The position numbers and the translations under genes are program-made. Shown piece after piece: positions 16,619 to 36,852 of a stretch of 64,000 nt of DNA. The DNA lies in contig NZ_JXOJ01000001.1 in assembly GCF_001017125.1 (NCBI RefSeq), positions 1 to 64,000 of the forward strand, given 5' to 3'. The DNA comes from Methanoculleus sediminis. GTDB taxonomy: Archaea > Halobacteriota > Methanomicrobia > Methanomicrobiales > Methanoculleaceae. Under the pieces are notes generated by a model. It was not told the DNA's origin. It ran no database searches and saw only the letters and a program-made list of their open reading frames with translations. Numbering within the stretch: position 1 is the first letter of the stretch; each line of letters starts with the position of its first letter.

Positions 16619-16918
16619 ATGCGCGATGGTCCGGTAGGAACGACGCTTCGCGGAGCGGAGTTTGAGCAACCCGATGGGTTTCGAACAGAGCGCGAAGAGA
16701 GTGATATCGATATTCTCATCGAGTTCAAGGAAAGGGGGCGCTCGTTTGATGCGTATATGGACCTCAAGTTCTTCCTCGAAGATCTCTTCAGGAGGAGAGT
16801 TGACCGCGATACCGTCAAGCCGGCTCTCGCGCCGTACATCCTCCGGAGTGTCCGGTATGCCCCGGCAAATAAGCAGGAAAGAATGATATGCGATGCGGGA
16901 AGAGATACAATGCTATGA
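16619..16918 (+). pseudogene. truncated MNT-type nucleotidyltransferase
   Basis: Only the C-terminal two thirds look like a minimal nucleotidyltransferase: EESDIDILIEFKERGRSF (about 27-44) gives the D-x-D catalytic pair, then LKFFLEDLFRRRVDRDTVKP. The expected N-terminal helix and the GS motif (G-S-x8-12-D-x-D) are absent; in their place is sequence matching a dispersed hairpin repeat (constant part GCGGAGTTTGAG, hairpin AACCC-GAT-GGGTT). The frame stays open from an ATG at 16619, so a short protein could be made but it should not bind nucleotide normally. Its TGA overlaps the ATG of the next nucleotidyltransferase (ATGA). Confidence 0.65.
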
Positions 16919-17343
16919 GACGCCGCCACCTGCTAAAAGCCGGAGAGAAAGAAGAGGTTCTCCGCACCATCCGCATGATCCTCGCCGGGTTTGACGAGAT
17001 AGAGGTGGGGTATGTCTTCGGAACGTTTTGCAGAGGGGATTTCGGCGACGTGGACGTGGCAATCCTTGTCACCGGTGAGCCCGCCCCCTACCAGGCGATG
17101 CGGTTCGCGCGGCGGGTCGAGCGGGAGCTCGAACGGGGGTTTTGTTACCGCTTTGAGGCTGACGTGAAGGTTCTCAACACCGCCCCGGTCTCTTTCCAGT
17201 ACGAGGTCATCAAGAGCGGCAGACTCGTGCTCTCCCGCGACAGAGAGCGTAGGGTCCGGTACGAGGCAGGCGTGCTCTCCCGGTATCTCGACTATGCGGA
17301 GACGCTCGACTGGTTCGACCGGGTTCTGCTCACGAGGGCCTGA
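16915..17343 (+). CDS. mntA: MntA-type nucleotidyltransferase antitoxin
   Basis: 142 residues from the ATG at 16915, which overlaps the stop of the preceding fragment; an ATG at 16888 is possible but extends into that fragment. The MNT core is VGYVFGTFCRGDFGDVDVAI (about 34-53): the usual G-S is G-T here, and both catalytic aspartates (DVDV) remain. In the type VII toxin-antitoxin system MntA-HepT, this enzyme adds AMP units to a tyrosine of HepT and silences it. The HepT gene follows after two bases. Confidence 0.8.
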   Translation: MRRRHLLKAGEKEEVLRTIRMILAGFDEIEVGYVFGTFCRGDFGDVDVAILVTGEPAPYQAMRFARRVERELERGFCYRFEADVKVLNTAPVSFQYEVIKSGRLVLSRDRERRVRYEAGVLSRYLDYAETLDWFDRVLLTRA

Positions 17344-17345
17344 GA

Positions 17346-17780
17346 ATGATCATGGACGAAGGGGTTCTCGGTCACCTCCGGGAATTGGACGAGGCAGCTC
17401 TGGACTGGGAACGCTACCGGTCCATCACCCTCGAAGACCTCAGGATCGACCGGGACAAACGAAACATGGTGCTGCACGCACTCCTCGTCAGCATCCAGGC
17501 ATCGATCGATATCGCCAACCACCTGGTCGCGGCCTCCAGCTCCAGGCGGCCCGAGACCTACCGGGAGAGTTTCGCGATTTTATGTGACGAGGGGCTGATC
17601 CCGGAAGACCTCGCGGTCCGGCTCTCAGACCTCGCGGGCTTTCGGAATGTTCTGGTCCACCTCTACTGCCGGCTGAACCTGGACGAAGTCTACGGGGTGC
17701 TTCAGGACGACCTTCCGATCGTAAACCGGTACCGGGATCTGGTTCGGATGATACTCCGGGACCGCCTCCTCCCGGAGTGA
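17346..17780 (+). CDS. hepT: HepT-type (HEPN) ribonuclease toxin
   Basis: 144 residues, all-helical HEPN protein. The ribonuclease motif R-x4-6-H with the modified tyrosine is intact as FRNVLVHLYCRL (R100, H105, Y107). Other family features are RNMVLHALLVSIQASIDIAN (about 39-58) and ETYRESFAILCDEGLIPEDL. In the MntA-HepT system this RNase is inactivated by AMP transfer onto the tyrosine two residues after the histidine. Paired with mntA directly upstream; the order antitoxin-toxin is usual. Confidence 0.88.
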   Translation: MIMDEGVLGHLRELDEAALDWERYRSITLEDLRIDRDKRNMVLHALLVSIQASIDIANHLVAASSSRRPETYRESFAILCDEGLIPEDLAVRLSDLAGFRNVLVHLYCRLNLDEVYGVLQDDLPIVNRYRDLVRMILRDRLLPE

Positions 17781-18210
17781 CGACTGAGCGCTGGAGTGAA
17801 CCGGGAGGAGATCCTCCCATCGCTCCGGCCTCCCGGGCCACCACGTCTCCACGAGCAGATCGAGGTCGGTGATGCTTCCCTCGATGAATGTCGCCCGGGG
17901 GTGGTCGAGGAGATGCTCGATAGCGAACCTACCCGGTAACTCCTCTCTGACGGGGCTGCCTCTCCCCGGTTGAAGACGGGGTCTCCGCGCTATAATTGGA
18001 TGGGAACTGCAGTTCACGTTCCCGGTTCACAAAGGAACGTTGACCCATAAGTATACTACTTTCTAGTCAACGACCCACTTGAGGCCGTCGGTAAGCGCCG
18101 GTGGTCCGGTCTGGGCATCCGTCATCTTTACGTTTGTGGTCGGGTGACCGGACTTATTCAACACAACACTCGGGCTGTTCTACCTCGTGTCCCGGTTGCC
18201 GCCGGGGAGT
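17781..18210. other. region without a supported gene, 430 bases
   Basis: Lies between the convergent hepT and relE-type genes. A leftward open stretch (about 17781-17960, with FAIEHLLDHPRATFIEGSIT and LDLLVETWW) reads like protein but has no start context and no family I recognise; it may be a gene remnant. An AT-rich patch with TAAGTATACTACTTT lies at about 18046-18062. Confidence 0.4.
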
Positions 18211-18501
18211 TTAAATGCGCCCGTATCTTCGATGTGCCTTTTCAATGGGCATGATGTGGGTGATATAAACGAGTTTTTCGTCCGAATTGATATTGTAGAT
18301 TACGGTGAACGTACGTGCGATATGGAGTCGGTACGATTCATGCTTTTTATTGGTGTGGAGTTTCTCTTTGTCCCCATCCGAACCGGGATAGGGATTCTCC
18401 CGTAAGATTCTCGGTTTGGCTTTGATAACCCGTCGATCTCTGGCGTCGAGAGAATTTAAAAAATCAAGCGCACGCTTATCCACCATGAGGCGGAATGTCA
18501 C
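18211..18501 (-). CDS. RelE/ParE-type toxin
   Basis: 96 residues from a GTG at 18501 that overlaps the antitoxin stop (GTGA). It has the RelE plan: a helical hairpin (LDFLNSLDARDRRVIKAKPR), the central KLHTNKKHESYRLHIARTFT with conserved basic residues (about 47-66), the strand VIYNINSDEKLVYITHI and a C-terminal EKAHRRYGRI. RelE-type proteins cut mRNA on the ribosome; here the RLHIARTFTVIY core is well kept. A decayed relative of its 3' end lies at 14033-14127. Confidence 0.85.
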   Translation of the reverse strand: MTFRLMVDKRALDFLNSLDARDRRVIKAKPRILRENPYPGSDGDKEKLHTNKKHESYRLHIARTFTVIYNINSDEKLVYITHIMPIEKAHRRYGRI

Positions 18502-18683
18502 AGGTCTAACTCCACGAACTCATTGCGAGCCATGGCTTCTTCGATATCATCAGTGAGTCGTTGTTTTTTAACGCTCTCCACCAATCTCGCGAGCGTATCG
18601 TTGAGCGTCTCGTCCGGGCGCCTGAGATCCAGGATCTGATGATAGGTCTCTTCCGATACGGGTATGTTCTCCGTAGCAGACAT
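18498..18683 (-). CDS. antitoxin partner of the RelE-type toxin
   Basis: 61 residues from the ATG at 18683, which has AGGA just upstream; a longer frame starts at 18737 but adds nothing conserved. The sequence MSATENIPVSEETYHQIL, then LRRPDETLNDTLARLVES, is that of small ribbon-helix-helix-like antitoxins common in archaea. The C-terminal acidic, helical end (IEEAMARNEFVELDL) would bind the toxin. Start-stop overlap with the toxin gene supports the pairing. Confidence 0.8.
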   Translation of the reverse strand: MSATENIPVSEETYHQILDLRRPDETLNDTLARLVESVKKQRLTDDIEEAMARNEFVELDL

Positions 18684-18982
18684 TGAATCCTGATAGGTGC
18701 TGATCATACATAAAACTCTTTTCATCACCGGAAGCATGGAGCCGTCCGGTTGCGCTCAGGCTGCGATGGCTGGAACGGTAAAGGGAGCAAATGTTCCTCG
18801 GTCCGACGGGATGACAGTGTCGGCTCATGTCTCGACCGTGCCCGGTCCGGACAGTCCTTCGACGTGTGAAGGATCAGCAGTATCGGTCGAAAGCGCCCGG
18901 ATGGCGAAGGACGCCGACCCCCCAAACCCCACACCCCAATCGATACACTCTATACGGCGAAAGCCCGATACTATTCCAGAAA

Positions 18983-20119
18983 ATGGATACCCCCGCCCTC
19001 TCCGTCGTCCTCCCGGCCCTCAACGAAGAGGCCACCATCGGCGAGTGCATCACTAAGATCCGGACGGTCTTTGCCGATCTCGAGATCGACGGCGAGATCA
19101 TCATCGCCGACTCCTCCGACGACCGGACGGCGGCGATCGCCCGGGACCTCGGGGCCAGGGTCGTCCGGCCGGAGAAGCGGGGCTACGGCAACGCCTACCT
19201 CGCGGGGCTCGCGTGCGCCCGGGGGAGGTACATCGTCATCGGGGACGCGGACAACACCTACGACTTCCTCGAGATCCCGAAGCTCCTCGCCCTGCTCGAT
19301 GCCGGCGCCGACATGGCCCTCGGCTCCCGGCTCAGGGGGGAGATCCGGCCGGGGGCGATGCCCGCCCTCCACCGGTACGTGGGCAACCCCTTCCTCACCT
19401 GGCTCCTCAACCGGGTCTTTTCCATCCGGATATCGGATGCACACACCGGGTTTCGGGCGTTCCGGCGGGAGGCGCTCGAACGGATGAATGTGAAGACCGG
19501 GGGGATGGAGTTTGCAAGCGAGATGATCATCGAGGCGGCGAAGGCCAATCTCCGCATCGACGAAGTCCCGATCACCTACTCCGCCCGGGTCGCTCCCTCG
19601 AAACTGCAGAGCTTCTCCGACGGCTGGCGGCACGTCCGGTTCATGCTCCTCTACCGGCCGATCCCCTTCGTCACCGTTCCGGGGCTGCTCTTCACGATCT
19701 TCGGCTTCTTTTTGATGGTCATCTTCGCCTTCCGGGGAGAGGTCGAGACCTCGTTCATCCACTCCTTCATCCTCGCCGCCCTCTTCTTCGTCGGCGGGCT
19801 CCAGGCGCTCTTTGCCGGGATAAACATCGCCGTCTACTCGGCCGTCCAGGGCTACGGCGAGGCGGGGCCGTTCCTCTCCCGGCTCATGAACTACCACAAC
19901 CTCGAGCGGGAGCTCCTCGCCGGGATCCTGCTGATGGCCGGCGGCGGTCTCGTCGGGCTCGCCATCCTCCGGGACTGGGCCGCCTCCGGGTTCGGCCCGC
20001 TCTTCCAGATCGCAAACGCCGTCTGGGCGCTGGCACTCTTCCTTGCCGGAATGCAGGTCGTCTTCTCCGGGGTCTTCACGAGCATGATGCTCTTGAATCG
20101 CGGCGAAGAACAGGACTGA
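18983..20119 (+). CDS. dolichol-phosphate-mannose-synthase-like GT2 glycosyltransferase
   Basis: 378 residues from the ATG at 18983; the frame extends further upstream without family resemblance. The catalytic half shows SVVLPALNEEATIGECI (about 6-22), IIIADSSDDRTAAIARDLGA and IVIGDADNTYDFLEIPKL (the DxD region, about 81-98), and SDAHTGFRAFRREALERM. Four membrane helices follow (about 225-370). It should move a sugar from a nucleotide donor to dolichol phosphate at the cytoplasmic face. This is a different branch from the AglD-like fusion at 7571. Stands alone in its transcript. Confidence 0.88.
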   Translation: MDTPALSVVLPALNEEATIGECITKIRTVFADLEIDGEIIIADSSDDRTAAIARDLGARVVRPEKRGYGNAYLAGLACARGRYIVIGDADNTYDFLEIPKLLALLDAGADMALGSRLRGEIRPGAMPALHRYVGNPFLTWLLNRVFSIRISDAHTGFRAFRREALERMNVKTGGMEFASEMIIEAAKANLRIDEVPITYSARVAPSKLQSFSDGWRHVRFMLLYRPIPFVTVPGLLFTIFGFFLMVIFAFRGEVETSFIHSFILAALFFVGGLQALFAGINIAVYSAVQGYGEAGPFLSRLMNYHNLERELLAGILLMAGGGLVGLAILRDWAASGFGPLFQIANAVWALALFLAGMQVVFSGVFTSMMLLNRGEEQD

Positions 20120-20207
20120 CCTCCTCCGGTCCACGCTGCTCCGCCCATTGATCCTGATTTTTAGGGCACATTTTTGATTTCTGCGCATTTTACGGGGAGA
20201 TCGATCC

Positions 20208-20218
20208 TGTTATATATG
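20208..20218 (+). promoter_or_regulatory. candidate TATA box of ablA
   Basis: TGTTATATATG about 40 bases before the ATG at 20253, at a position suited to a short leader that carries a GGAGG ribosome site at about 20239. Confidence 0.5.
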
Positions 20219-20252
20219 ATTGGCGGTACAGTGTGACCCGGAGGAACTGCGA

Positions 20253-21566
20253 ATGGCCATTTTATCAACCAACCAGCAGGAGATAGCAGAAAGGATCGAT
20301 GCAGGTGCCGCCGCGGAAGTCTGGCGGGACTGGAGGTGGCATGTCCGGCACGCGATCACCGATATCTCCACGTTCGAGCGGCTGCTCGGCGTATCGTTCG
20401 GGCAGGACGAGCGGCGGGAGCTGGAAGAGACCGCGAGCAGGTTCCCCCTGAGGATAACCCCGTACTACCTCTCGCTCATCGATCCAAAGGATCTCTGGAA
20501 CGACCCGATCTTCATGCAGTGCTTTCCGTCACCGGCGGAGCTGCAGGTCGAGCCCGACGACATGGAAGACCCGCTTGCCGAGGACGCCGATCACCCGGCC
20601 CCCTGCATCACCCACCGCTACCCCGACCGGGTGCTGTTCCTGGTCAGCAACGTCTGCGCCATGTACTGCCGGCACTGCACCCGGAAGCGGAAGGTCGGGG
20701 ACGTCGACTCCGTCCCCTCGGAAACCGAGATCCTCGAGAGCCTCGACTACATCCGGGAGAACCCCGGTATCCGGGACGTCCTCCTCTCCGGGGGCGACCC
20801 GTTCATGCTCCCCGACGACCGCCTCGACTGGATCCTGACCGAACTCGACGACATCGAGCACGTCGAGGTGGTCCGGATCGGCAGCCGGGTTCCGGTCGTC
20901 CTCCCCTACCGGGTCACGGACGACCTCGCCAGGATGCTCGCCCGTCACCACCCGCTCTGGGTGAACACCCACTTCAACCACCCGGCGGAGATCACCACGT
21001 CCTCACAGAAAGCGCTCGCCCGGCTTGCCGATGCCGGCATACCGCTCGGCAACCAGACCGTCCTCCTGGCGGGGGTGAACGACTGCCCCCGGATCATGAA
21101 GACCCTGGTGCAGAAACTCGTCCGGAACCGGGTCCGCCCCTACTATCTCTACCAGTGCGACCTCTCCGAGGGGCTCACCCACTTCCGCACCCCGGTCTCG
21201 AAGGGGATCGAGATCGTCGAGAGCCTTATCGGGCATACCAGCGGGTTTGCCGTCCCGACCTACGTCATCGACGCTCCCGGCGGCGGCGGGAAGATCCCGG
21301 TGATGCCCCAGTACCTCATCTCCTGGGCAACGAACCGGGTGGTGCTCCGGAACTTCGAGGGGGTGATCACCACTTACCGCGAGCCCGACTCCTACGAACC
21401 GGTCTGGTGCGACCGCAAGTGCGCGACCTGCGGGCAGTACCTCAAACTCGAGGGCGCGGACGAGTCCAAGGCGGTCGGGATCGTCAAACTCCTCTCCGAC
21501 GAGGACCCGACGACTGCGCTCGTCCCGGAGAACACCGAGCGGTTCGAGCGGAGAAATGAGTCCTGA
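20253..21566 (+). CDS. ablA: lysine 2,3-aminomutase
   Basis: 437 residues from the ATG at 20253, chosen because a GGAGG lies seven bases upstream. Radical SAM cluster cysteines are in [14 protein letters not shown] (C135, C139, C142), the SAM-binding glycines in [10 protein letters not shown], the PLP lysine in APGGGGKIP (about 347-355), and the zinc cysteines in CDRKCATC near the C terminus. It turns L-alpha-lysine into beta-lysine. With the acetyltransferase that overlaps it by 11 bases it makes N-epsilon-acetyl-beta-lysine, the salt-stress solute of methanogens. The archaeal length and gene pairing are typical. Confidence 0.95.
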
Positions 21567-22395
21567 CACCGTCACGACGATCGGCGGCACTCTCGTCCAG
21601 CACGGGCGGTTGAGCGACCGCATCTACGTGATGCACCTCTCGCCCGCCGACCTCCCAGAAATCCTCGACGATCTGGATGCGCTCTCACAGAAGGAGGGTT
21701 ACTCGAAGATATTTGCAAAGGTGCCCGCCTCCGCCCTCCCGCTCTTCATCTCCCGGGGCTACGTCGTCGAGGCACGGGTTCCGGGATTCTTCCGGGGCAG
21801 GGAGGACGGGTATTTCGCGGCGAAGTTCTTTGATGCGGAACGCCGGCGGGAGTCGGGTGACGTCGCCGCGGTCCTCGCGGCCGTCCGGGAGAAGGCTGGC
21901 GATGCCCATCCGGCCGCCCTTCCGCCCGGCTGGACGTGCGCCCCTGCGGCGGAAGACGACGCCGACGACCTTGCCGCGCTCTACGGCGAGGTCTTTGCGA
22001 CCTACCCGTTCCCCATCGGTGATCCCGGCTACCTGCGGGAGACGATGGCCGGGGACTACCGCTACTTCCTCGTCCGCACCGAAGACGGCCGGCTTGCCGC
22101 GGCCTCCTCGGCGGAGATCTACCGCGAGGACGAGAACGTCGAGATGACCGACTTCGCCGTGCACCCGGATTTCCGGGGCAAAAGCCTCTCGGGCTTCCTC
22201 CTTTTGCGGATGGAGGAGGAGATGCGGGCGGCCGGGATGAAGACCGCCTTCACCATCGCCCGGGCTCTCTCCTACCCGATCAACGCCGTGTTTGCCCGGG
22301 CGGGGTACGCGTGGGGGGGCACCCTCGTCAATAACACCAACATCTGCGGCGGGTTCGAGAGCATGAACGTCTGGTCTCGGCCGCTGGAGAGGTGA
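21556..22395 (+). CDS. ablB: beta-lysine N6-acetyltransferase
   Basis: 279 residues, overlapping ablA. Residues about 25-110 form an N-terminal domain ([24 protein letters not shown]); the GNAT domain follows with the acetyl-CoA loop [20 protein letters not shown] (about 196-215) and a closing [16 protein letters not shown]. The protein ends [19 protein letters not shown], a tail typical of AblB. It acetylates the side-chain amine of beta-lysine to give the compatible solute. Confidence 0.93.
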
Positions 22396-22677
22396 GGAGA
22401 AGGTCCGCCGCCGGTGTAAGGACGGGCGTCGTGCCGGCTTTTGGGGCGCACGTTCACCCGCTGGCATATATGGGAAGCAAACAACAAAAGGGAGCATCGG
22501 TTTACGCCGGTTCATCCGTCGCGAGTGCGTCACATGAAATGTCCGAATCCCCGGCAGGTTTTCGGAGGTGCAGGTGACCCGGGTCAGGAGAGCAGCGATC
22601 TGGATGGACGCATTTTGTTCCACATGGAACACATTTGAACCAATACCTGGAAACGGACCTGTTCCCCCAGCCTGAAG
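22396..22677. other. intergenic region, 282 bases
   Basis: Between ablB and the leftward small gene. I see no gene, tRNA or strong terminator. It is convergent, so it should contain both transcript ends. Confidence 0.4.
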
Positions 22678-22908
22678 TTACCCGTCGCCGTGCACCGGTT
22701 CGGGGCGGTGCCGGGCAGCCTGGTGCATCCGGAGGTATTCGGACCGGGAAAGAGCGAAGTTTTCGGCATTCTCAAAGAACGCGTCGATCAGGTCGGCCTG
22801 CTCGCGGCTCCACACCTCGTTTGGGACCTCCCTGACCCGGAGGGCATGTCTCCGGACAAAGGCCAGCCGCTCCTGCCTGTTCTTCTCGCGGTCAAACTTC
22901 AATTCCAT
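22678..22908 (-). CDS. small charged partner of the adjacent nucleotidyltransferase
   Basis: 76 residues from the ATG at 22908, preceded by GGGGGG and overlapping the end of the nucleotidyltransferase gene by 17 bases. The protein is charged and mostly helical: MELKFDREKNRQERLAFVRR, then VPNEVWSREQADLIDAFFEN and ALSRSEYLRM. I do not know a named family. The overlap and size suggest a toxin-antitoxin-like pair with the upstream nucleotidyltransferase; that is inference. Confidence 0.7.
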   Translation of the reverse strand: MELKFDREKNRQERLAFVRRHALRVREVPNEVWSREQADLIDAFFENAENFALSRSEYLRMHQAARHRPEPVHGDG

Positions 22909-23494
22909 ACTGTTCCCCCCGGACCTGCAGGCGCTCCATGAACGATCGCAGGAGTTCGCTGTCCAGCATCTCCCGGAACAACACCCAGAGATAGACCGCA
23001 TCCTCGATATCCTTGTCGCTCCCAAGATAGAGTTTGTAGGGAATCTGCAGCTCGATGGGCGATACGAAGAACCGGATGTCGTCGAACTCTACCGTCTTCG
23101 CCCTGGACATCGCATAACGATCGAAGTCGTCTTTCTTGAACTTCATCTCGATATTCGGGATGATCCTTCCGGCTCCGGCAATCCGCACGGCAAGCCTGTC
23201 GCAGAGCATCGAGTAGATCTCCTCGATATCGTCGGAATTCAGGAAGTAAAACCCTTGCGCCAGAAGGTCTTCTGAAAATGGCCGGAACGTATCGTAATCC
23301 ATGTAATCGATGAAAATATCAATATCTTCCGTACCTCTGGCTCTTCCAAAAAGGATTGCAACGTACCCGCTGACGATCACGTAGCGGGTATACCACTCGA
23401 TGATGCTCGTCACCGAGGCCACAAAACGATCGAGTGAGGTCACAACCTTTCCGTCGATGCGGATGGTGCCGTCGGGAGCATTCGCGATCTGCAT
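22892..23494 (-). CDS. AbiEii-like nucleotidyltransferase
   Basis: 200 residues. The nucleotidyltransferase core is YVIVSGYVAILFGRARGTED (about 38-57) followed by IDIFIDYMDYD, giving the G..A..G.R.T.D.D pattern of the DUF6036/AbiEii-like group. The middle holds IPNIEMKFKKDDFDRYAMSR and FFVSPIELQIPYKLYLGSDK (about 141-160), which fit the second half of that fold. It has a good AGGAAG ribosome site before ATG 23494. Such enzymes often act as the enzyme half of two-gene defence or toxin-antitoxin units, and a small gene overlaps its 3' end. Confidence 0.8.
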   Translation of the reverse strand: MQIANAPDGTIRIDGKVVTSLDRFVASVTSIIEWYTRYVIVSGYVAILFGRARGTEDIDIFIDYMDYDTFRPFSEDLLAQGFYFLNSDDIEEIYSMLCDRLAVRIAGAGRIIPNIEMKFKKDDFDRYAMSRAKTVEFDDIRFFVSPIELQIPYKLYLGSDKDIEDAVYLWVLFREMLDSELLRSFMERLQVRGEQYGIEV

Positions 23495-23763
23495 TTCCCT
23501 TCCTCTGGTAGAGTCTTACCGGGCACAGCATTAATTGCATGCACCCCGGTCCCTCAGTATATCAATTGTCCCGTAGATGTTTGTCTTCTTTCAACAGCCG
23601 TTCCCGGTGACCGAAGCCTCCAGGAAACCCCGGCACGATCTCATCTCGTGTTCTGTACCGGTTACGGGGGATGTTTATGTCTCTTCTGTCCCTGTTCACC
23701 CTCCCCGGATCGCCGGAGACCATCTCGCCGGCGGCTGTCCGGGGTTACACCAAAAAGAGAGTA

Positions 23764-26855: not shown

Positions 26856-26915
26856 CTTATTAGTCGGTGCGTTGTATAATACCATAAAGTAATTGCAGGG
26901 GACTAGTGAGCCAGA

Positions 26916-29307: not shown

Positions 29308-29412
29308 GAGGTTCTTTCCTCTCCACCCTTTGAACTTTTATCGAAGCACCGAAACCCGGCGCAATTCTTATCCCCCGGCAGCCGGAGAGTACCCGTAAGG
29401 GAGCATGGATCG

Positions 29413-30516
29413 ATGGCAGACGTCTATTTTGCCGGTATCAGGGCACGGGGTCACCACGAGAGCAAAGCCGCGAAGATTCGCCGCCTCTTTGATGCGGCCG
29501 GGTTTGACGCGGCTATCCGGCCGGGGGACCTTGCGGCCGTCAAACTGCACGTCGGCGAGCGCGGGTGCGACACCTACGTCCACCCGCTCTTCGCCCGGCA
29601 GGTGGTCGATAAGATAAAAGAGCGCGGAGCGCACCCGTTCATCACCGATACCGCCACCCTCTATGCCGGGAGCCGGGCCGACGCCGTCCGGCACACCGTC
29701 ACCGCAATCGAGCACGGGTTCGCCTACGCGGTTTCCGGCGCCCCGGTCATCATCGCCGACGGCCTTTCCGGCGGTTACTGGAGGGAGGTCGCCGTCGGGG
29801 GGAAGCACTTCGAACGCGTCCGGATCGCCGGGAGCATCCTCGACGCCGACAGCATGATCGTTCTCTCGCACGTCAAGGGCCACGACCTCGCCGGGTTCGG
29901 CGGCGCGATCAAGAACCTGGCGATGGGCTGCGCCCCGCCGTCGGGGAAGGCGGAGCAGCATGCGGGCCGGCCGTTCGTGGAGATCGAGCGGTGCGGCGGG
30001 TGCGGGAAGTGCACCACGGTCTGCCCGCAGGCGGCGATGACCCTCGCCGACGGGCGGGCGGTGCTCAACCCGGAGCACTGCGTCGGGTGCGGCGACTGCA
30101 TGCGTGCCTGCCCGACGGGCGCGATCGAGTTCGACTGGACGACGGAGATCCGGCCGTTCATCGAGCGGCTCTGCGAGTACGCCCTCGGCGCCGTTCGCGG
30201 CAAATCCGGAAGGGTCGGCTACGTCAACTTCCTCCTCAACATCACCCCGGACTGCGACTGCGTCTCCTGGAGCGACGCGGCCGTCGTCCCCGATATCGGG
30301 ATCCTCGCCTCCACCGACCCGGTCGCGATCGACCACGCGAGTTTCGATCTGGTCAACAGCGAGCAGGGGTTCTCCCGGACGCAGCTTGCGGGGAACTTCG
30401 CTCCCGGGGAAGACAAGTTTAAGGGGATCTGGGACTACACGGACGGCAGGTACCAGTTCGAGTATGCGGCTGCCATTGGGCTCGGGGATGCCGATTACCG
30501 GCTGATCGAGGTGTGA
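29413..30516 (+). CDS. DUF362 protein with two 4Fe-4S clusters
   Basis: 367 residues. A DUF362 fold (VKLHVGERGCDTYVHPLFAR; MIVLSHVKGHDLAGFGGAIK; LASTDPVAIDHASFDLVN) surrounds an inserted ferredoxin domain with CGGCGKCTTVCP and CVGCGDCMRACP (about 196-207 and 222-233). These proteins are common in methanogens and are thought to take part in redox or corrinoid-related chemistry, but the substrate is unknown. It is followed one base later by an iron-sulfur flavoprotein gene, suggesting a joint redox role. Confidence 0.88.
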   Translation: MADVYFAGIRARGHHESKAAKIRRLFDAAGFDAAIRPGDLAAVKLHVGERGCDTYVHPLFARQVVDKIKERGAHPFITDTATLYAGSRADAVRHTVTAIEHGFAYAVSGAPVIIADGLSGGYWREVAVGGKHFERVRIAGSILDADSMIVLSHVKGHDLAGFGGAIKNLAMGCAPPSGKAEQHAGRPFVEIERCGGCGKCTTVCPQAAMTLADGRAVLNPEHCVGCGDCMRACPTGAIEFDWTTEIRPFIERLCEYALGAVRGKSGRVGYVNFLLNITPDCDCVSWSDAAVVPDIGILASTDPVAIDHASFDLVNSEQGFSRTQLAGNFAPGEDKFKGIWDYTDGRYQFEYAAAIGLGDADYRLIEV

Positions 30517-30517
30517 G

Positions 30518-31087
30518 ATGTCGACCGGAAGCGTTGTGCTGCTCTGCGGAAGCCCCCGGCCCGGGGGGAACACCGCACAGGTGCTCGGGGAGTGCGCAAA
30601 GGTCCTCGAGCGCGAGGGTATCGAGACCGAGACCATCCTGCTCGGGGAGAAGCATATCCTCTCCTGCACCGCCTGCGGGCTCTGCACCGAGGGGGAGTGC
30701 GCCCTCGACGACGGCTTGAACGAGATCATCGAGAAGATCCGGGAGGCCGACGGGTTCATCGTGGGAACCCCGGTCTACTTCGGCACCGCCCGCGGCGACG
30801 TCACGGCGGCCCTGCAGCGGATCGGGATGGTCTCGATGGCGTCCGACTCCTTCCTCTCGCGGAAGGTGGGCGGCCCGATCGCTGTGGCCCGGCGAGGCGG
30901 GCATACCGCCACGCTCCAGGAACTGCTGATGTTTTACCTCATCAACGACATGATCGTGCCGGGCTCGACCTACTGGAACATGGTCTTCGGGAGAACGCCG
31001 GGGGAAGCCCTGGGCGACGAAGAAGGGATGAGAACGGTCCGGCGGTTCGCCGAGAACGTTGCGTTCCTGATCAGGAAGTTGCGCTAG
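30518..31087 (+). CDS. iron-sulfur flavoprotein, Isf/NADPH-FMN reductase family
   Basis: 189 residues, flavodoxin-like. The FMN phosphate loop is CGSPRPGGNTAQVL (about 10-23), the compact cluster motif CTACGLCTEGEC (about 49-60) matches the Cx2Cx2Cx4-7C of methanogen iron-sulfur flavoproteins, and GTPVYFGTARGDV contacts the flavin. Isf proteins take electrons from ferredoxin and reduce oxygen species or unknown acceptors. Cotranscribed with the DUF362 ferredoxin gene. Confidence 0.88.
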   Translation: MSTGSVVLLCGSPRPGGNTAQVLGECAKVLEREGIETETILLGEKHILSCTACGLCTEGECALDDGLNEIIEKIREADGFIVGTPVYFGTARGDVTAALQRIGMVSMASDSFLSRKVGGPIAVARRGGHTATLQELLMFYLINDMIVPGSTYWNMVFGRTPGEALGDEEGMRTVRRFAENVAFLIRKLR

Positions 31088-31421
31088 TGCACCGTGTCAT
31101 CTTATTATAGAAATTTCTTGCATGTACCGGGACGGCAACCATGGTCTCACGCGAAGAGCGCGAAGCCGCGAAGTGCGACTGCCAGAATGGCAGGAGCATG
31201 AGCACCGTTAGGTGTGAAGGAGTGTAACTCTCAACCAACCGGGTCTTCGCGCTCTTCGCGGCTTCGCGTGAGTTATTAGTGTAGATGACGATACGGTCTT
31301 GCGCGAAGGACGCGCAGCCTTCGCGTTCTTCGCACCTATCGGTGCTCAAGCAACCTGAAAGTCTTCAAGCACCGGTGCTCCGGAGAATAACCTTTTTCGT
31401 CCTCTCCGATGAGGGATCAGT
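31088..31421. repeat. intergenic repeat patch with long inverted repeat and hairpins
   Basis: 334 bases without a gene. Imperfect inverted arms at 31146-31173 and 31243-31272 are built from CGCGAAGAG/CTTCGCG blocks. Between them lies a rightward copy of the dispersed repeat (GGCAGGAGCATGAG, then hairpin CACC-GTTA-GGTG, about 31188-31214). At about 31330-31360 an opposite-strand copy has hairpin CACC-TATC-GGTG, and CACCGGTG follows at about 31371-31378. A stem next to the flavoprotein stop could act as terminator. Related copies are at 16.63 kb and 36.4-36.8 kb. Confidence 0.7.
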
Positions 31422-31769
31422 ATGGATCTTTCGTCTGAAGCGATCGTCCCGGATGTCGCGGATACGGCACCGTTGACCCGGCGGGAGATCGCCGACCTCC
31501 TGCCGGAAGTCCCGGACTGGTCGCTCGAAGACGGGCGGCTTACCGCCCGGTTCGCCTGCAAAGGGTTCGATGAAGCGGTGACGTTCCTCAACGAGGTCGC
31601 CGGGTTTGCCGCGCGAGAGAACCATCTCCCGGATCTCGGCATCCACGCTGCAAGGTACGTGGACGTCGCCTGGTATACCTACGCCATCGGCGGACTCTCC
31701 CGCAACGACTTCATCATGGCCGCACGGCTCTCCGAGTGGCTCCGGTGCCGGCAGGGCGCGCTCCTTTAG
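31422..31769 (+). CDS. pterin-4a-carbinolamine-dehydratase-like protein
   Basis: 115 residues, close to the usual length. The family plan is visible: LTRREIADLLPEVPDWSLED, LTARFACKGFDEAVTFLNEV, and NHLPDLGIHAARYVDVAWYT followed by IGGLSRNDFIMAARL. The first catalytic block is changed (usual HHP is NHLP, with one extra residue) and the later TH of THxxGGLT is TY, so two of three catalytic histidines are missing. It may have lost dehydratase activity and serve another pterin-binding role. It converges on the thioredoxin gene, overlapping by four bases. Confidence 0.78.
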   Translation: MDLSSEAIVPDVADTAPLTRREIADLLPEVPDWSLEDGRLTARFACKGFDEAVTFLNEVAGFAARENHLPDLGIHAARYVDVAWYTYAIGGLSRNDFIMAARLSEWLRCRQGALL

Positions 31770-32182
31770 CCGGTGCCGAACGCCCGCATGACCCGTGCTT
31801 TGACGGCCTCTCTCGGGAGCGCGCCGACCACCCGGTCGACCAGCATCCCGTTCGCGAAGAACAGGAGCGTGGGTATCGCCGTTATGCTGAAACTCGACGC
31901 GATTCTGGGATTTTCGTCGACGTTGCACTTGCCGAAGGTAACCCTGCCGGCGAAGTCACGCGCAAGGTCTTCGACGACCGGGGCCACCATCCGGCAGGGG
32001 CCGCACCATTCCGCCCAGACGTCGACGACCAGGGCGCGGTGTTCCTGCAGGATCGTCTGGAACGTACCATCGGCGACCTCGATGACGCCGCCCGGCGTTC
32101 CCGTGAGCCGTTCTTCGAGTTTCCGGAGCCGTTCTTCCCGGAGACGCTGCAGTTCGTCGTCAAGCGGCCTCTCTCCTTCCAT
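31766..32182 (-). CDS. thioredoxin with N-terminal extension
   Basis: 138 residues. The thioredoxin domain covers about residues 33-138, with the redox motif VDVWAEWCGPCRMVAPVVED (about 53-72), the cis-proline strand ITAIPTLLFFANGM (about 100-113) and VDRVVGALPREAV. A charged helical extension of about 32 residues (DDELQRLREERLRKLEERL) precedes it. Reduces protein disulfides in the cytoplasm. Single-gene leftward transcript; the extension may be a dimer or docking helix. Confidence 0.93.
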   Translation of the reverse strand: MEGERPLDDELQRLREERLRKLEERLTGTPGGVIEVADGTFQTILQEHRALVVDVWAEWCGPCRMVAPVVEDLARDFAGRVTFGKCNVDENPRIASSFSITAIPTLLFFANGMLVDRVVGALPREAVKARVMRAFGTG

Positions 32183-32271
32183 ATGACGGAGGTATGCCGT
32201 TCGCTCATATTAAATAATTAGCCTCCCGCCGGGCACCGCCGCCCGGAACTCGCACCGGTCCGGCCCGCACA

Positions 32272-32286
32272 AAGATATATATCTCC
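32272..32286 (+). promoter_or_regulatory. candidate TATA box of the initiator tRNA gene
   Basis: AAGATATATATCTCC lies about 35-45 bases before the tRNA start, and GTATATAC closer in at 32299-32306; either could serve as TATA box of the tRNA promoter. Confidence 0.45.
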
Positions 32287-32318
32287 CGAAAAACAATGTA
32301 TATACCTCACAGGTCGGA

Positions 32319-32393
32319 AGCGAGGTGGGGTAGTCAGGAAATCCCGGCGGGCTCATAACCCGTAGATCGATGGTTCAAATCCATCCCTCGCTA
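32319..32393 (+). tRNA. tRNA-Met (CAT), initiator type
   Basis: A complete 75-base cloverleaf. The acceptor stem is AGCGAGG with CCTCGCT and discriminator A; the D arm is GTGGGGTAGTCAGGAAATCCC; the anticodon loop CTCATAA sits on a stem of three G-C pairs (GGG/CCC); the T arm has GGTTCAAATCC. The A1-U72 end pair and the three G-C pairs of the anticodon stem mark archaeal initiator tRNA. CCA is not encoded. A T-run follows (GCGTTTTTG at about 32409-32417). Confidence 0.95.
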
Positions 32394-32420
32394 TGAGAGA
32401 CTCTCTCGCGTTTTTGCATC
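32394..32420 (+). terminator. probable transcript end of the tRNA gene
   Basis: GAGAGACTCTCTC followed by GCGTTTTTGC directly after the tRNA. The run of T fits archaeal termination; the short palindrome may help. Confidence 0.5.
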
Positions 32421-32610
32421 TTTTTCTTCGTTATCCGTCTCCTGCACCATAAGGGTTCTTTTTCCGGGCCGGGACGCACATTTACACCCGATCCGCCCGG
32501 AATAGGGGCTGTAAACCGCGCAAAACGTGTACGGGCTCTTTTGAACCAGCAGGATACATATTATCCCCGCATGCCGGAAAAATAAGAGGACGGTGATCCG
32601 GAACAGTGGC

Positions 32611-34047
32611 TTACGTCTCTTCCTTCCCGGCCCTGAAGGTCGAGAGATCGGACTGGTGGGTGCCGGCCACGTAGTCCACGACACAGTGGCAGCTCTTCTC
32701 CCCGTTGATCTCCACCGGGTAGCACCCCGTCAGGCACCCGGTGCAGAGGTTCCGCTCGCCGCACCCGATCGCCTCCACCAGATCCTCAAGTGGAATGTAG
32801 GTGAGCGACGTCGCGCCGACGCTCCTACGGACCGCCTCGACCTCCTTGCCGCTTGCGATCAGCTCCGTGCGGGTGGGCATGTCCACCCCGAGGTAGCAGG
32901 GGGCGATGATCGGCGGGGAGCCGACCCGGAGGTGGATCTCTTCGGCCCCCGCGTCGCGGATCATGTTCACGATCCGGCGGGAGGTCGTCCCCCGGACGAT
33001 GCTGTCGTCGATGAGCACCACCCGTTTGTCCTTCAGGTTTCCCCGGACGGTGTTGAGTTTGATCCGGACCGCCCGCTCCCGTTGCTGCTGGGTCGGCATG
33101 ATGAACGTCCGGCCCATGTAACGGTTCTTCATCAGCCCCTCGAGGAACGGGATCCCGGACTGCTTGGCGTAGCCCGCGGCGTACGCGATCCCGGAGTCGG
33201 GGACCGGACAGACCGCGTCCGCCTCAATGGGCCTGGCATCGTAGAGTTTCTGCCCAATCCGGCGCCGCACATCGTAGACCAGCGTCCCGTCCATCACCGA
33301 GTCGGCGCGGGCGAAGTAGATGTACTCGAAGATGCAGTAGGCCCTCCGGTTCGCGGTCGCGACCTGAACGGAGGTGAGCCCGGACTCATCGATCCGGACG
33401 AGTTCGCCGGGACGCACGTCCCGGACGAACGTGCCGTCCAGCGCATCGATCGCCACGCTCTCCGACGCGACGATGTAACCGTTGTCGAGTTTTCCGATGC
33501 AGAGCGGCTTGATGCCGAGCGGGTCCCGGAAGGCGTAGACGGTATTGTTCAGGAGCGCTACGGTGGCGTAGGAGCCCCGCAGCCGCCGCATGCAGAGCAG
33601 GACGGCATCCTCCATACTTTTGGAGGTCCGGAGCGCATCGGCGATGATGTTGCCGATGATCTCGGTATCGGTCGTGGTGCAGAAGATCTGCCCCCGGCGC
33701 TCGTATTCCTCACGGAGTTCGACCGTATTGACCAGATTGCCGTTATGGGCGATCGAGAGATCGAGCCCCCGGTACCGGAAATTGAACGGCTGAACGTTTT
33801 CCGGGACCTTCGACCCGGTTGTCGGGTAGCGGACGTGTCCGATTCCGGCGTTGCCCCGCAGATCCTGCAGGGTCTGGCTGTTGAAGACCTCGGCAACGAG
33901 CCCCTGGGCTTTGTGGGTGTACAGGGTCGTGCCTTCAAAAGTAGAGATCCCTGCGCTCTCCTGCCCCCGGTGCTGGAGAGCATACAGGGCGTAGTACAGC
34001 GGAAACGAGACACCGCCAGCATCGACGATGCCAACGATACCACACAT
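32611..34047 (-). CDS. purF: amidophosphoribosyltransferase
   Basis: 478 residues. The nucleophile is Cys2 (MCGIVGIVDAGG) with no propeptide. The glutaminase domain shows ALQHRGQESAGIS and GIGHVRYPTTG; the phosphoribosyltransferase domain has VCPVPDSGIAYAAGYAKQS and the PRPP loop VVLIDDSIVRGTTSRRIVNM (about 345-364). Cysteines near the C terminus (CGERNLCTGCLTGCYP) fit the iron-sulfur-type enzymes. It starts purine synthesis by making phosphoribosylamine. Third gene of the Lsm-L37e-purF unit usual in euryarchaea. Confidence 0.96.
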   Translation of the reverse strand: MCGIVGIVDAGGVSFPLYYALYALQHRGQESAGISTFEGTTLYTHKAQGLVAEVFNSQTLQDLRGNAGIGHVRYPTTGSKVPENVQPFNFRYRGLDLSIAHNGNLVNTVELREEYERRGQIFCTTTDTEIIGNIIADALRTSKSMEDAVLLCMRRLRGSYATVALLNNTVYAFRDPLGIKPLCIGKLDNGYIVASESVAIDALDGTFVRDVRPGELVRIDESGLTSVQVATANRRAYCIFEYIYFARADSVMDGTLVYDVRRRIGQKLYDARPIEADAVCPVPDSGIAYAAGYAKQSGIPFLEGLMKNRYMGRTFIMPTQQQRERAVRIKLNTVRGNLKDKRVVLIDDSIVRGTTSRRIVNMIRDAGAEEIHLRVGSPPIIAPCYLGVDMPTRTELIASGKEVEAVRRSVGATSLTYIPLEDLVEAIGCGERNLCTGCLTGCYPVEINGEKSCHCVVDYVAGTHQSDLSTFRAGKEET

Positions 34048-34056
34048 GATGCAACT

Positions 34057-34239
34057 CTAATGCGTCGGTACCTTTGCCTTCTTCTCCGTCCAGCGGTAAC
34101 TGCGGATCCTCCGGCTTCTGCCGAACCCACAGGCCGCACAGACTTTGTGCTGTGCGTGGAACGAGATCTTGCCGCATCGCCTGCAGGCGATGTGAGTGCG
34201 TTTCTGCCGCTTGCCCATCGATGGTGTGCCTTTTGACAT
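34057..34239 (-). CDS. rpl37e: 50S ribosomal protein L37e
   Basis: 60 residues, full length. It begins [20 protein letters not shown] and has the zinc-ribbon cysteines CRRCGK and [15 protein letters not shown]. Binds 23S rRNA in the large subunit. Located between the Lsm and purF genes in the usual archaeal order. Confidence 0.97.
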
Positions 34240-34255
34240 TCTCTCTCACCTAATG

Positions 34256-34483
34256 TTATTCGACTGAAGGGGTAATGTAAATCACATTGTCACCGCGGAC
34301 GATCAACGTGCCGAGTTTCTGCGCCGCGCCGTCCACTTCTTCTTCTGCCTTGTCCAGTACCAGATTCATGTGAACGTCGTATCCCTGGAGGATCCCCCGG
34401 ATCTCTCTCCCACCTTTCAGGCTGATGATGACGGGCTGACGATTCAGTACCTGATCTAAAATATCCAACGGTCTTGGCGTCAT
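34256..34483 (-). CDS. Sm-like (Lsm) RNA-binding protein
   Basis: 75 residues. Sm1 motif: [20 protein letters not shown], then [12 protein letters not shown] (about 35-46); Sm2 motif: [14 protein letters not shown]. Forms a ring that binds U-rich RNA. First gene of the operon with L37e and purF. A TATA-like AAATATAT lies upstream in the divergent region. Confidence 0.96.
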
Positions 34484-34592
34484 ATGATTACCCTTTGCCG
34501 TCCATTCTGGAGTAATATATTTGAGTGAGGAAGCTACTTAAATATAACCGCGTTGCTGCGCGAGAGTCAGCGCCACCTCGAGGTTTCGACAC
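34484..34592. promoter_or_regulatory. divergent promoter region, Lsm operon and PUA gene
   Basis: AT-rich for this genome. AGTAATATATTTGAG (34511-34525) can serve the leftward Lsm unit, and ACTTAAATATAACC (34536-34549) the rightward PUA gene at a suitable 45 bases from its ATG. Confidence 0.55.
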
Positions 34593-35090
34593 ATGCCAAA
34601 GATTACCGTAAAGAAGCGCCACGTCATCCGGAAATCACAGATAAGCGAACTTCTCGAGCGACTCACGGACGAGATCGGGGCATCGGCCGACCTCTTCCGG
34701 TCGGACAGGATCGAGCGGGTGGAGACGGATGCTCCCGTCGGGATCTATCTCATCGATAAAAAGCCCCTCCTGATGGGGGCCGAAGACTGGGCGTTCCCGA
34801 CCCTGCGGGGGCTCGTCGAGCACCCGATCCCCGAGCGGCGGGTGGTGGTCGATTCCGGCGCGGTCAGGTTCGTCGCAAACGGCGCGGATGCCATGCGCCC
34901 CGGGATCGTATCGATCTCGGCGGACATCCGTGCGGGGCACCCGGTGCAGGTCGTCGAGGAGCGGCACGGAAAACCGCTTGCCGTGGGGATTGCGCTCTTC
35001 GATGCAGCCGATATGGAGCGGCAGGAGAAGGGCAAGTCCGTTAAAAGCATCCACTATGTCGGGGACGATCTCTGGAATCTGGAGGTCTGA
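34593..35090 (+). CDS. PUA-domain RNA-binding protein (MCT-1/Tma20-like)
   Basis: 165 residues. An N-terminal domain (VKKRHVIRKSQISELLERL; RVETDAPVGIYLIDKKPLLM) precedes a PUA domain: RRVVVDSGAVRFVANGADAM (about 89-108) and RPGIVSISADIRAGHPVQVV. This layout is that of archaeal relatives of eukaryotic MCT-1/Tma20, which bind the small ribosomal subunit or tRNA. Exact role in archaea is not settled. Confidence 0.9.
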   Translation: MPKITVKKRHVIRKSQISELLERLTDEIGASADLFRSDRIERVETDAPVGIYLIDKKPLLMGAEDWAFPTLRGLVEHPIPERRVVVDSGAVRFVANGADAMRPGIVSISADIRAGHPVQVVEERHGKPLAVGIALFDAADMERQEKGKSVKSIHYVGDDLWNLEV

Positions 35091-35108
35091 CGGAGAAAAT
35101 AATGGATA

Positions 35109-35120
35109 CTATTAAATAAA
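35109..35120 (+). promoter_or_regulatory. TATA box of sepF, leaderless start
   Basis: CTATTAAATAAA is centred about 26 bases before the sepF ATG at 35141. At that distance transcription would start at or next to the ATG, and no ribosome site is seen, so sepF is probably leaderless. Confidence 0.6.
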
Positions 35121-35140
35121 ATTCATTCCTCAATTTTTCT

Positions 35141-35518
35141 ATGGTTAAAAAACTCTTTGACAGCATCCTCGGCAAAAGTCCGGCAAGAAACGAAGAGGAC
35201 TACATGGAACTCGATCTCGCCTCCTACGAGGGATCGAGCGACGAAGAACCGGCATCCATGTACATCAAGATCGCCACCATCGCCGACCTCAAAGATACCC
35301 CGCGCGTCAAAGACGAGGTCTATAACGGCAATATCGTCATCGTCGATATCGGGCGGCTGAAGATGGACAAGGTGACGTTCGAGCGGGTCTTGAAGGACCT
35401 CCGCGACGTCGCAAAGGACGTGAACGGCGACATCGTCGGCCTTGGGGAGCAGAAGTACGTCCTCATCACCCCGATGTCCGTCAAGGTCTCCCGCGAGAAG
35501 ATCGGCGGGGGCCTCTAG
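35141..35518 (+). CDS. sepF: cell division protein SepF
   Basis: 125 residues. A short N-terminal amphipathic, membrane-binding stretch (MVKKLFDSILGK) and an acidic linker (EEDYMELDLASYE) are followed by the SepF core (about 42-120) with YIKIATIADLKDTPRVKDEV, GNIVIVDIGRLK and DIVGLGEQKYVLITPMSVKV. In archaea with FtsZ, SepF ties the Z-ring to the membrane. The next gene starts inside its stop (TAGTG). Confidence 0.95.
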   Translation: MVKKLFDSILGKSPARNEEDYMELDLASYEGSSDEEPASMYIKIATIADLKDTPRVKDEVYNGNIVIVDIGRLKMDKVTFERVLKDLRDVAKDVNGDIVGLGEQKYVLITPMSVKVSREKIGGGL

Positions 35519-36045
35519 TGCGGGAGTCCCATCCGGGAACCTGTCCCGCCTGCGGGGGCGAGATCCGGATCGTCCATCACCGCCTTGACATCCCCCACTT
35601 TCCCGACCTCCTGCTCGTCTCCATCGCCTGCGAAGCCTGCGGCTACCGGCACACCGACACCATCATCCTCGGGGAGGGCGACCCGGTCCGGTGGACGGTG
35701 CGGGTGGAGGAGCCCGGCGACCTCGCCATCCGGGTGGCGCGGAGCACGACGGGGAAGATCGAGATCCCGGAACTCGGCCTCGCGGTCGAACCCGGCACCG
35801 CCTGCGAGGGTTTCGTCACCAATATCGAGGGAATTCTCTACCGCTTCGAGCAGGCGGTGGAGACGATCCTCGCGAACCCCGAGAGCGAAGACGAGCGGGC
35901 GGCCGCAATCAGGATGATGGAGACGATAGCCGCCGCACGGGAGGTGGCCTTCCCGTTCACGGTCATCCTCGAGGACCCTGCCGGGAACAGCGCCCTCGCC
36001 AGTGAGAAAGCCGAAAAGATGCTCCTCGATCAGGAAGAAGCCTGA
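35518..36045 (+). CDS. ZPR1-type zinc finger protein
   Basis: 175 residues from a GTG whose first base is the last of the sepF stop. A four-cysteine zinc ribbon (CPACGGEIRIV ... CEACGYRH, about 9-44) precedes a ZPR1 beta domain: VRWTVRVEEPGDLAIRVARS, then TGKIEIPELGLAVEPGTACE, GFVTNIEGILYRFEQAV. Archaeal single-unit ZPR1 proteins are known but not well understood. The eukaryotic relative binds elongation factor 1A. Coupled to sepF. Confidence 0.92.
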   Translation: MRESHPGTCPACGGEIRIVHHRLDIPHFPDLLLVSIACEACGYRHTDTIILGEGDPVRWTVRVEEPGDLAIRVARSTTGKIEIPELGLAVEPGTACEGFVTNIEGILYRFEQAVETILANPESEDERAAAIRMMETIAAAREVAFPFTVILEDPAGNSALASEKAEKMLLDQEEA

Positions 36046-36124
36046 CCACTTTTTTCAACCCTCCCGGGGGGTTAACCTGAAATAGAACCTCCCCCCATAC
36101 GGCAGCGCCGTGAGGTGAAGAGCG

Positions 36125-36361
36125 ATGGCACGAACGATATCGGTGCTGAAATGGGAGAGCGAAGAGGAGGTCGAGAACGCCGTCCACGACATAAGAGCGG
36201 AGATGGGCCGGGCAGGCGGGCTTTCCAAGGAGACGGAGCGGGCGATGCAGCACTCGTTCTGGGTGGCCGACCCTGACCTTGCGAACCACTTCCTGCGGCG
36301 GGTTCGCGAACAGGTTCCCGAGGCGCTGCACTACTTCGAGGAGGAAGGCGGCGGGGCGTGA
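36125..36361 (+). CDS. small hypothetical protein
   Basis: 78 residues, ATG with a good GAGGTGA ribosome site. Charged and helical: ISVLKWESEEEVENAVHDIR, then LSKETERAMQHSFWVADPDL, FLRRVREQVPEALHYFEEE. I do not recognise the family. It ends exactly where the hairpin repeat array begins, so its last residues may have been shaped by the repeat. Confidence 0.65.
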   Translation: MARTISVLKWESEEEVENAVHDIRAEMGRAGGLSKETERAMQHSFWVADPDLANHFLRRVREQVPEALHYFEEEGGGA

Positions 36362-36600
36362 GTGGCGACTTCCGGAACGGCAGGAGTTCGAGAAGATGCG
36401 AAGCATCTTCGAATGGCGACTGTCCGCAGGATGCGACTTCCGGAACGGCAGGAGTTCGAGAAGATGCGAAGCATCTTCGAATGGCGACTGTCCGCAGGAA
36501 GATGCGAAGCATCTTCGAATGGCGACTGTCCGCAGGATGCGACTGCCGGAACGGCAGGAGTTCGAGAAGATGCGAAGCATCTTCGAATGCGACGGGCCAG
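36362..36600. repeat. tandem array of a 68/38-base unit with a perfect hairpin
   Basis: The palindrome GAAGATGC-GAA-GCATCTTC occurs four times, starting at 36392, 36460, 36498 and 36566, i.e. at steps of 68, 38 and 68 bases. The 68-base unit is hairpin, GAATGGCGACTGTCCGCAG, then GATGCGACTTCCGGAACGG and CAGGAGTTCGA; the 38-base unit lacks the second half. All three rightward frames are open across it, a by-product of the repeat. It is not CRISPR: the spacers are copies of each other. Confidence 0.9.
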
Positions 36601-36852
36601 AGGGCCGGAGCCTGGGCCCCGGAGGTGTGACTTACGACGTTTCGTCAGGAACGGAGTTTGAGCACCGTTAGGTGCGATGAATGTCGTTCTTCGCGTGAAT
36701 TACTTGCCGGGGATAACGATACAGTCTCAGTACTTCGCTGAAATGGCTGAGGTCGTTCTCAAAAGGTCAACCAGTCGACTTCCCTTTTCTCGAAGGGAAC
36801 GGAGCTTGAGCACCGGAGGTGCGAGTGCGGTGGAAGTTCACGAGGTGCCGGG
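36601..36852. repeat. two further dispersed hairpin repeats, no gene
   Basis: Copies of the same family: GGAACGGAGTTTGAG with hairpin CACC-GTTA-GGTG and CGA at about 36651-36678, and GGAACGGAGCTTGAG with CACC-GGA-GGTG and CGA at about 36797-36823. The rest (36679-36790) is AT-richer and featureless, with no supported ORF. Confidence 0.7.

Follow-up and report, generated by a model that had tools for sequence, protein, structure and literature searches.

The first 64,000 nucleotides of contig NZ_JXOJ01000001.1 from Methanoculleus sediminis (the window) contain dispersed copies of a short repeat unit composed of two neighbouring hairpins. A complete unit on the plus strand (31174..31215) reads TGCGA-CTGCCA-GAA-TGGCAG-GAGCATGA-GCACC-GTTA-GGTGT and lies directly 3' of GCGAAG in an inverted repeat, CTCACGCGAAG..CTTCGCGTGAG. 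Another, also on the plus strand (36633..36675), reads TACGA-CGTTTC-GTCA-GGAACG-GAGTTTGA-GCACC-GTTA-GGTGC, and is found with identical sequence at the same place in the related genomes G020, G006 and G015. A preliminary description of this DNA had listed one hairpin per copy, and each of those is present: CACC-GTTA-GGTG at 31.2 and 36.66 kb, CACC-GATA-GGTG at 31.34 kb on the minus strand, CACC-GGA-GGTG at 36.81 kb, AACCC-GAT-GGGTT at 16.67 kb and four copies of AAGATGC-GAA-GCATCTT between 36.39 and 36.59 kb. The constant left flank attributed to these hairpins does not hold. The copies at 31.2, 31.34 and 36.81 kb have GGAGCATGAG, GTTGCTTGAG and GGAGCTTGAG, respectively, three of the AAGATGC copies have GGAGTTCGAG, and the remaining one lacks a flank; these variants in turn pair with bases further left. 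Directly upstream of the flank lies a first hairpin that had been overlooked.

The whole unit has the form NNC-GA-[hairpin 1]-GA-GNN-N-GA-[hairpin 2] and usually spans 41-48 nt. It comprises an outer stem, a tandem G.A/A.G internal loop, a six-pair stem closed by a GNA or GNNA loop (hairpin 1), a short linker and a second GNA/GNNA hairpin (hairpin 2), with the tandem mismatch placed between outer and inner stems. Among 45 distinct hairpin 1 sequences of equal length, 90.4% of cells are paired (64.5% when the letters of the 3' arm are shuffled) and 65 cells are changed on both sides (22 shuffled). The covariation score of 0.655 compares with 0.214 for shuffled arms, was reached by 0 of 500 shuffles, and is destroyed when the partner is slid by 1-3 columns. 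The three variable linker bases, formerly taken as flank, are the 3' side of the outer stem. Between left position -2 and linker position 1, the 97 units examined have 62 G-C, 25 A-T, 8 G.T and 1 A.C; this first variable pair is Watson-Crick in 87 of 97 units (55 shuffled), and the next is A-T, C-G or T-A in 61 (31.5 shuffled). The tandem G.A pairs and three-base linker brought a kink-turn into consideration; it was rejected, since the linker bases are paired to the left flank.

The earlier proposal that the arms change together is borne out: they covary across copies of hairpin 1 with its outer stem, and hairpin 2 occurs with many alternative stems. Across the collected copies, imperfect ones included, we found 91 distinct stems for hairpin 1 and 44 for hairpin 2, the latter forming two groups, GCACC and GAA...C. 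A single hairpin 1 stem occurs with several hairpin 2 stems and vice versa, which indicates that the two hairpins have been exchanged between units.

Counts were obtained from pattern and model searches and from approximately 1 Mb of genome stretches. Across the 2.49 Mb genome, TGAGCACC-N2-8-GGTGCGA was matched exactly 92 times and the reversed pattern never, which is far above chance. In 591 kb scanned for perfect hairpins without preselected stems, those with a stem of at least 5 and a loop of GNA or GNNA type had GA at either side in 146 + 62 cases, against 1 + 0 in a Markov shuffle; for the remaining loop types the enrichment is smaller. The flank is not simply a protein-coding word either: matches to GGAG-N3-GAG in genes occur by chance and carry no hairpins, and the coding-word reading was rejected.

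Genome comparison shows that close relatives have gene order in common and differ in their repeats. At one GCGAAG, M. sediminis reads CTCACGCGAAGAGCGCGAAG and G020 reads CTCACGCGAAG-[TGCGAC...TTCTTC]-GAGAGCGCGAAG, an empty and a filled version of the same site. At 46.99 kb there is no unit in M. sediminis, one 47-bp composite in G006 and about 22 copies in G020. Directly 3' of GCGAAG we found 61 distinct units, and none in the reverse orientation; insertion is oriented at a fixed short target, as for an IS200/IS605 derivative. The inverted repeats CTCACGCGAAG..CTTCGCGTGAG, which occur at 31143-31273 and in many intergenic places, are a frequent landing site. They hold the d(GCGAAG) mini-hairpin word and carry tandem CGCGAAG words, 292 of which were counted in the sampled part of the genome.

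Empty and filled versions also exist of an MNT-type nucleotidyltransferase (mntA-like) gene. It is uninterrupted (..GGCGAAGAGCGCGAAGAG..) in G029, G006, G017 and G030, holds one unit in G016, and holds longer arrays of differing lengths in G015, G033 and G020. The remnant in M. sediminis (16630-17040) was broken by a repeat array and then shortened, apparently via recombination between two linker copies; its unit (16639..16682, plus strand), AACGA-CGCTTCGCGGAGCG-GAGTTTGA-GCAACCC-GAT-GGGTTTC, is a deleted derivative of a longer array. The idea, taken from this site, that a stem is copied from the target sequence was dropped, as it had one example only. Most units lie in unaligned stretches between conserved blocks, but one array splits the mntA-like gene. 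Calling of open reading frames was unreliable, because arrays create long spurious frames in this G+C-rich genome, and gene-context statistics based on such frames were discarded altogether. Long tandem arrays of whole units with 46-base spacing are found in G033 (C15:383514-383879), G020 (C1:1429837-1430388) and G006 (C5:54196-54331), and several such arrays are partly masked as N in M. sediminis.

Units also insert into one another. Many right halves have no adjacent left arm, and the missing arm often lies upstream with a whole unit in between. In a search that took in whole units only, 35 of 350 complete units were located inside the split hairpin 1 of another unit. In every case the two units share a strand, the opposite strand giving 0; random pairing of left and right flanks gave a mean of 2.7 and a maximum of 7. 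The nested units lie 0-4 nt 3' of the host hairpin 1 loop, and removal of the nested unit together with 3 (sometimes 4) bases restores the host hairpin. The three flanking bases are identical in 12 of the 35 cases, compared with 5.4 expected by shuffling (p 0.0002). Nested copies arise by insertion just 3' of another unit's hairpin 1 loop. One such event is polymorphic in the mntA-like gene, where G016 has CGCTCT-GAA-AGAGCG intact, whereas in G033 and G020 it is split, with GAA at both sides of the insert in G033.

Of 35 Methanoculleus genomes, 29 carry the form with the CACC stem, in 1 to 95 copies; so does one other genus of the family, while none of the 24 genomes sampled from the order's other families has it. 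A covariance model confirms this distribution: among the matches listed, whose counts are lower bounds, copies are numerous throughout the genus and in one related genus, and the rest of the order has a few weak or isolated ones; outside the genus nothing reached E 1e-4 among 247 genomes of the phylum. The genomes poor in units are G014, G018, G019, G021, G024 and G026, and G000, G004, G006, G012 and G020 are rich in them. Exact pattern matches fall in Methanoculleus and Methanomicrobiales records. Carriage by viruses was rejected: IMG/VR has 9 exact matches of a 17-base pattern, approximately the chance number, and none holds a whole unit. The repeat is a real, abundant, genus-level family of mobile hairpins with strong structural covariation and a new insertion rule, and no description of it was found in the literature searched.

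Candidate movers were sought among known enzyme families. Reverse transcriptase (PF00078) is absent from this genome and from 32 of the 35 genus genomes, and was set aside as mover. A Y1 transposase of the kind associated with repetitive extragenic palindromic (REP) sequences, the REP-associated tyrosine transposase (RAYT), was likewise searched for as mover and not found in this genome. Only Y1 proteins of the IS200 type have been reported in Archaea (PMC6006769). One genus genome, G021, has 22 Y1 transposase matches, many of them fragments, and no CACC-form copies.

The loops bear on the nature of the folded molecule. Hairpin 2 loops start with G and end with A in 87% of cases, and the closing pair is C:G in 353 of 368. 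Loops of the c-GNA-g and c-GNNA-g class are reportedly unusually stable in DNA, both from the work of Hirao in 1994 (cited in PMC11292364) and from Bevilacqua's selections of DNA tetraloops, whereas the RNA tetraloop preference is GNRA. The hairpin 2 tetraloops favour a pyrimidine in the third place, with 123 GNYA and 27 GNRA. In hairpin 1 and the outer stem, G.T pairs outnumber A.C pairs (59 vs 15), and the GA-carrying strand is therefore the folding strand. Together, loop types and strand bias point to single-stranded DNA, without proving it.

We propose that the repeat is a REP-like, non-autonomous mobile DNA unit that spreads in Methanoculleus as a folded single strand, and assign this reading a probability of roughly 0.58. 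An enzyme or repair route would act on exposed hairpins, recognising their shape, loop and G.A mismatches rather than the stem sequence; it would open the strand directly 3' of a c-GNA-g loop and join the unit there. Because any paired stem would work, stems could diversify freely between copies, and settled copies would decay; units also expand in tandem. More tentatively, and with odds that we place below even, the unit may be a self-nesting single-stranded DNA hairpin parasite of Archaea that takes as its target the junction at the loop of its own hairpin when folded. Its mover would then be an enzyme, or a repair route based on hairpin cleavage, outside the known REP and IS mover families.

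Several points weigh against the proposal. No mobilising gene is known: PF01797 (Y1_Tnp) has no match in this genome, 28 of the 35 genus genomes are without it, and in most of the 7 that have it units are scarce or missing. We observed neither excision nor circles nor any new insertion. The short duplication suggested by the bases flanking nested units is untidy, with identity in only 12 of 35. Hairpin 2 lacks the G.T over A.C bias (18 vs 14), and both G.T pairs and tandem G.A pairs are compatible with RNA too. Finally, the distinct copies include orthologues and tandem duplicates, and their counts are not numbers of independent events.

Movement might require no dedicated enzyme. A host nuclease, for instance Mre11-Rad50, could cut extruded single-stranded hairpins 3' of the loop, and short-homology template switching could then repair the end by copying in a unit from another place. 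Nesting, tandem growth and GRR at both junctions would follow from such repair; short purine repeats (GAA, GAG, GGA, GGG) are indeed found at the junctions, tandem expansion is common, as the 47-bp unit illustrates, and both enzyme families searched for are missing from this genome. The human enzyme polymerase theta starts stem-loop synthesis from two terminal pairs (PMC11292364), which we count for repair. However, inserts often end exactly at unit ends, and where GGG stands at both junctions the bases track the target and not the units' usual GA flank. Repair copying would also be expected to give partial or longer pieces often, of which a search requiring whole units gives no fair measure. 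We consider repair alone rather unlikely. A classical REP or IS200/IS605-derived repeat, whose Y1 transposase either disappeared from most genomes or is supplied externally in trans, would share the design of short, folded, strand-specific units with a mismatch within the stem (compare PMC8266576), and Y1 transposases do exist in a few genomes of the genus. Yet these are mostly genomes in which units are few or absent (G024, G002, G014, G021 and G023, with G010 as the exception), the GTAG tag is absent, and RAYT-type enzymes have not been reported from Archaea (PMC6006769), so that such an origin appears very improbable.

Selection on transcripts could also keep arms paired, if the unit worked as a processing site, attenuator or protein-binding element in RNA. 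Covariation with G.T tolerance on one strand would be expected of such a role, and tandem G.A internal loops are frequent in RNA; the GNYA tetraloops, the gain and loss of copies among close relatives, the copies inside a split gene and the Rfam search of the window, in which only a tRNA matched and the repeat had no family match, argue the other way. So does the fate of copies between species. Stems of orthologous hairpins are identical in 34 comparisons, and the differences are mostly single-arm changes, gaps and loop changes, decaying singly without being restored; pairing therefore seems important during the spread of the unit and not long afterwards. We regard a function in RNA as improbable. 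The same comparisons bear on the rewriting of palindromes in place, raised in the preliminary description; template-switch correction of imperfect hairpins is a process that would alter both arms jointly. Many different perfect stems do stand in the same surroundings, and one orthologous pair differs in both arms (GGTCC/GGACC vs GGGCC/GGGCC). That pair belongs to a tandem array, however, and could equally be the product of recombination there; the remaining differences affect single arms or loops, and tandem duplication has propagated one-arm changes uncorrected. Because arms are mostly identical or singly decayed between close relatives, rewriting in place is not supported and seems not to be the main source of stem diversity, and we give it very little credence. 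The variety of stems is consistent with numerous lineages of a mobile unit that needs pairing to move, together with exchange of hairpin 1 and hairpin 2 between units.

Similarities to known systems are partial. Like miniature inverted-repeat transposable elements (MITEs), the unit is short and non-coding, is present or absent between relatives, and forms tandem and nested copies, but no terminal inverted repeats were seen when the ends were compared by eye, and no parent transposon was found. Integron attC sites recombine as folded single strands and retain their structure while the sequence changes. The unit conserves its fold in the same manner, but there are no cassettes, the unit is itself the insert, and no integron integrase was seen, although no search aimed at one was made. 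Group IIC introns insert in one orientation directly after DNA hairpins, as the unit does, but the unit is far too small and the reverse transcriptase is absent in this genome, a lack that likewise sets the unit apart from retrons and diversity-generating retroelements (DGRs). Non-autonomous IS200/IS605 derivatives share insertion in one orientation beside a short target and single-strand hairpins at the ends; here, in contrast, the genome has no tnpA, insertion is 3' of a hairpin loop, and approximately three repeated bases are apparently involved. IS200/IS605 elements are not known to make a target duplication.

The closest resemblance is to REP sequences, their bacterial interspersed mosaic elements (BIMEs) and TnpA_REP (RAYT), as in the REPs of E. 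coli and the GTAG repeats of Stenotrophomonas, which are likewise short, multicopy, strand-specific single-stranded DNA hairpins with a mismatch bulge in the stem and families of differing stems (PMC3733652, PMC8266576). In E. coli the mismatch bulge is required and the REP is read as a single strand (PMC8266576), which is the closest functional parallel. The unit differs in its archaeal host, in the absence of a GTAG tag and of a Y1/RAYT gene, and in its tandem G.A internal loop, covarying outer stem, insertion beside hairpin loops and nesting. REPs tagged with CGTC are also short palindromes with no known dedicated transposase (PMC3733652), but the unit has no constant CGTC end, possesses two hairpins, and shows wide stem variation within one genome. 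Neither a GTAG nor a CGTC tag occurs at the unit ends, which are NNC on the left and the closing base of hairpin 2 on the right, mostly with GRR flanks. The unit works like a REP element but lacks the marks by which REPs are recognised.

Bacterial REP-like repeats are tied to Y1 transposases; the archaeal genus studied here has an element of similar style, present at high copy in the absence of the enzyme. The repeat adds a new structural signature (tandem G.A, GNA/GNNA loops and outer stem) and a clear insertion-site rule. The genomes are in effect a natural selection experiment on stable DNA mini-hairpins, and nested copies provide the order of insertion events. Given the orientation rule, simple oligonucleotide assays can test the single-strand hypothesis. 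A mover that proved to be a new nuclease or recombinase able to read hairpin shape would also be of use as a tool.

The remaining copies in the window range from complete to strongly reduced. On the minus strand, a truncated unit (31329..31353) retains hairpin 2, GCACC-GATA-GGTGC, and part of the linker, with hairpin 1 lost. In the array at 36.4-36.6 kb, all on the plus strand, AAGATGC occurs four times, compared with about eight copies in G020. The array begins with a complete unit (36364..36410) whose hairpin 2 is GAAGATGC-GAA-GCATCTTC and whose hairpin 1 has a mutated 5' arm (CTTCCG), followed by a complete tandem copy of the same kind (36432..36478). A lone hairpin 2 of the same sequence (36498..36516) is what is left of a unit otherwise deleted, corresponding to a 30-base gap relative to G020, and the most downstream AAGATGC copy (36538..36584) is complete, with CTGCCG-GAA-CGGCAG as hairpin 1 and GAAGATGC-GAA-GCATCTTC as hairpin 2. 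Next to it, a decayed unit (36588..36628, plus strand) has CGGGCC-AGA-GGGCCG as hairpin 1 and an imperfect hairpin 2. The last unit (36774..36822, plus strand) combines hairpin 2 GCACC-GGA-GGTGC with an imperfect hairpin 1, and G003 and G011 have a different hairpin 1 at this site.

Other repeats accompany the units in the window. A 21-bp repeat is present in three tandem copies at 14407-14469, with one copy fewer in G020. A separate MITE of approximately 196 bp (46869-47065) has the ends GGCTTTGCTG / GACAGGG and the flanks CCCTTATGTC and CCCTTACGTC; its site is empty in G033, G003 and G011, and a relative with the ends GGCTTTGTTGA / TCAACAGGGCC is found at 371 kb of C1.

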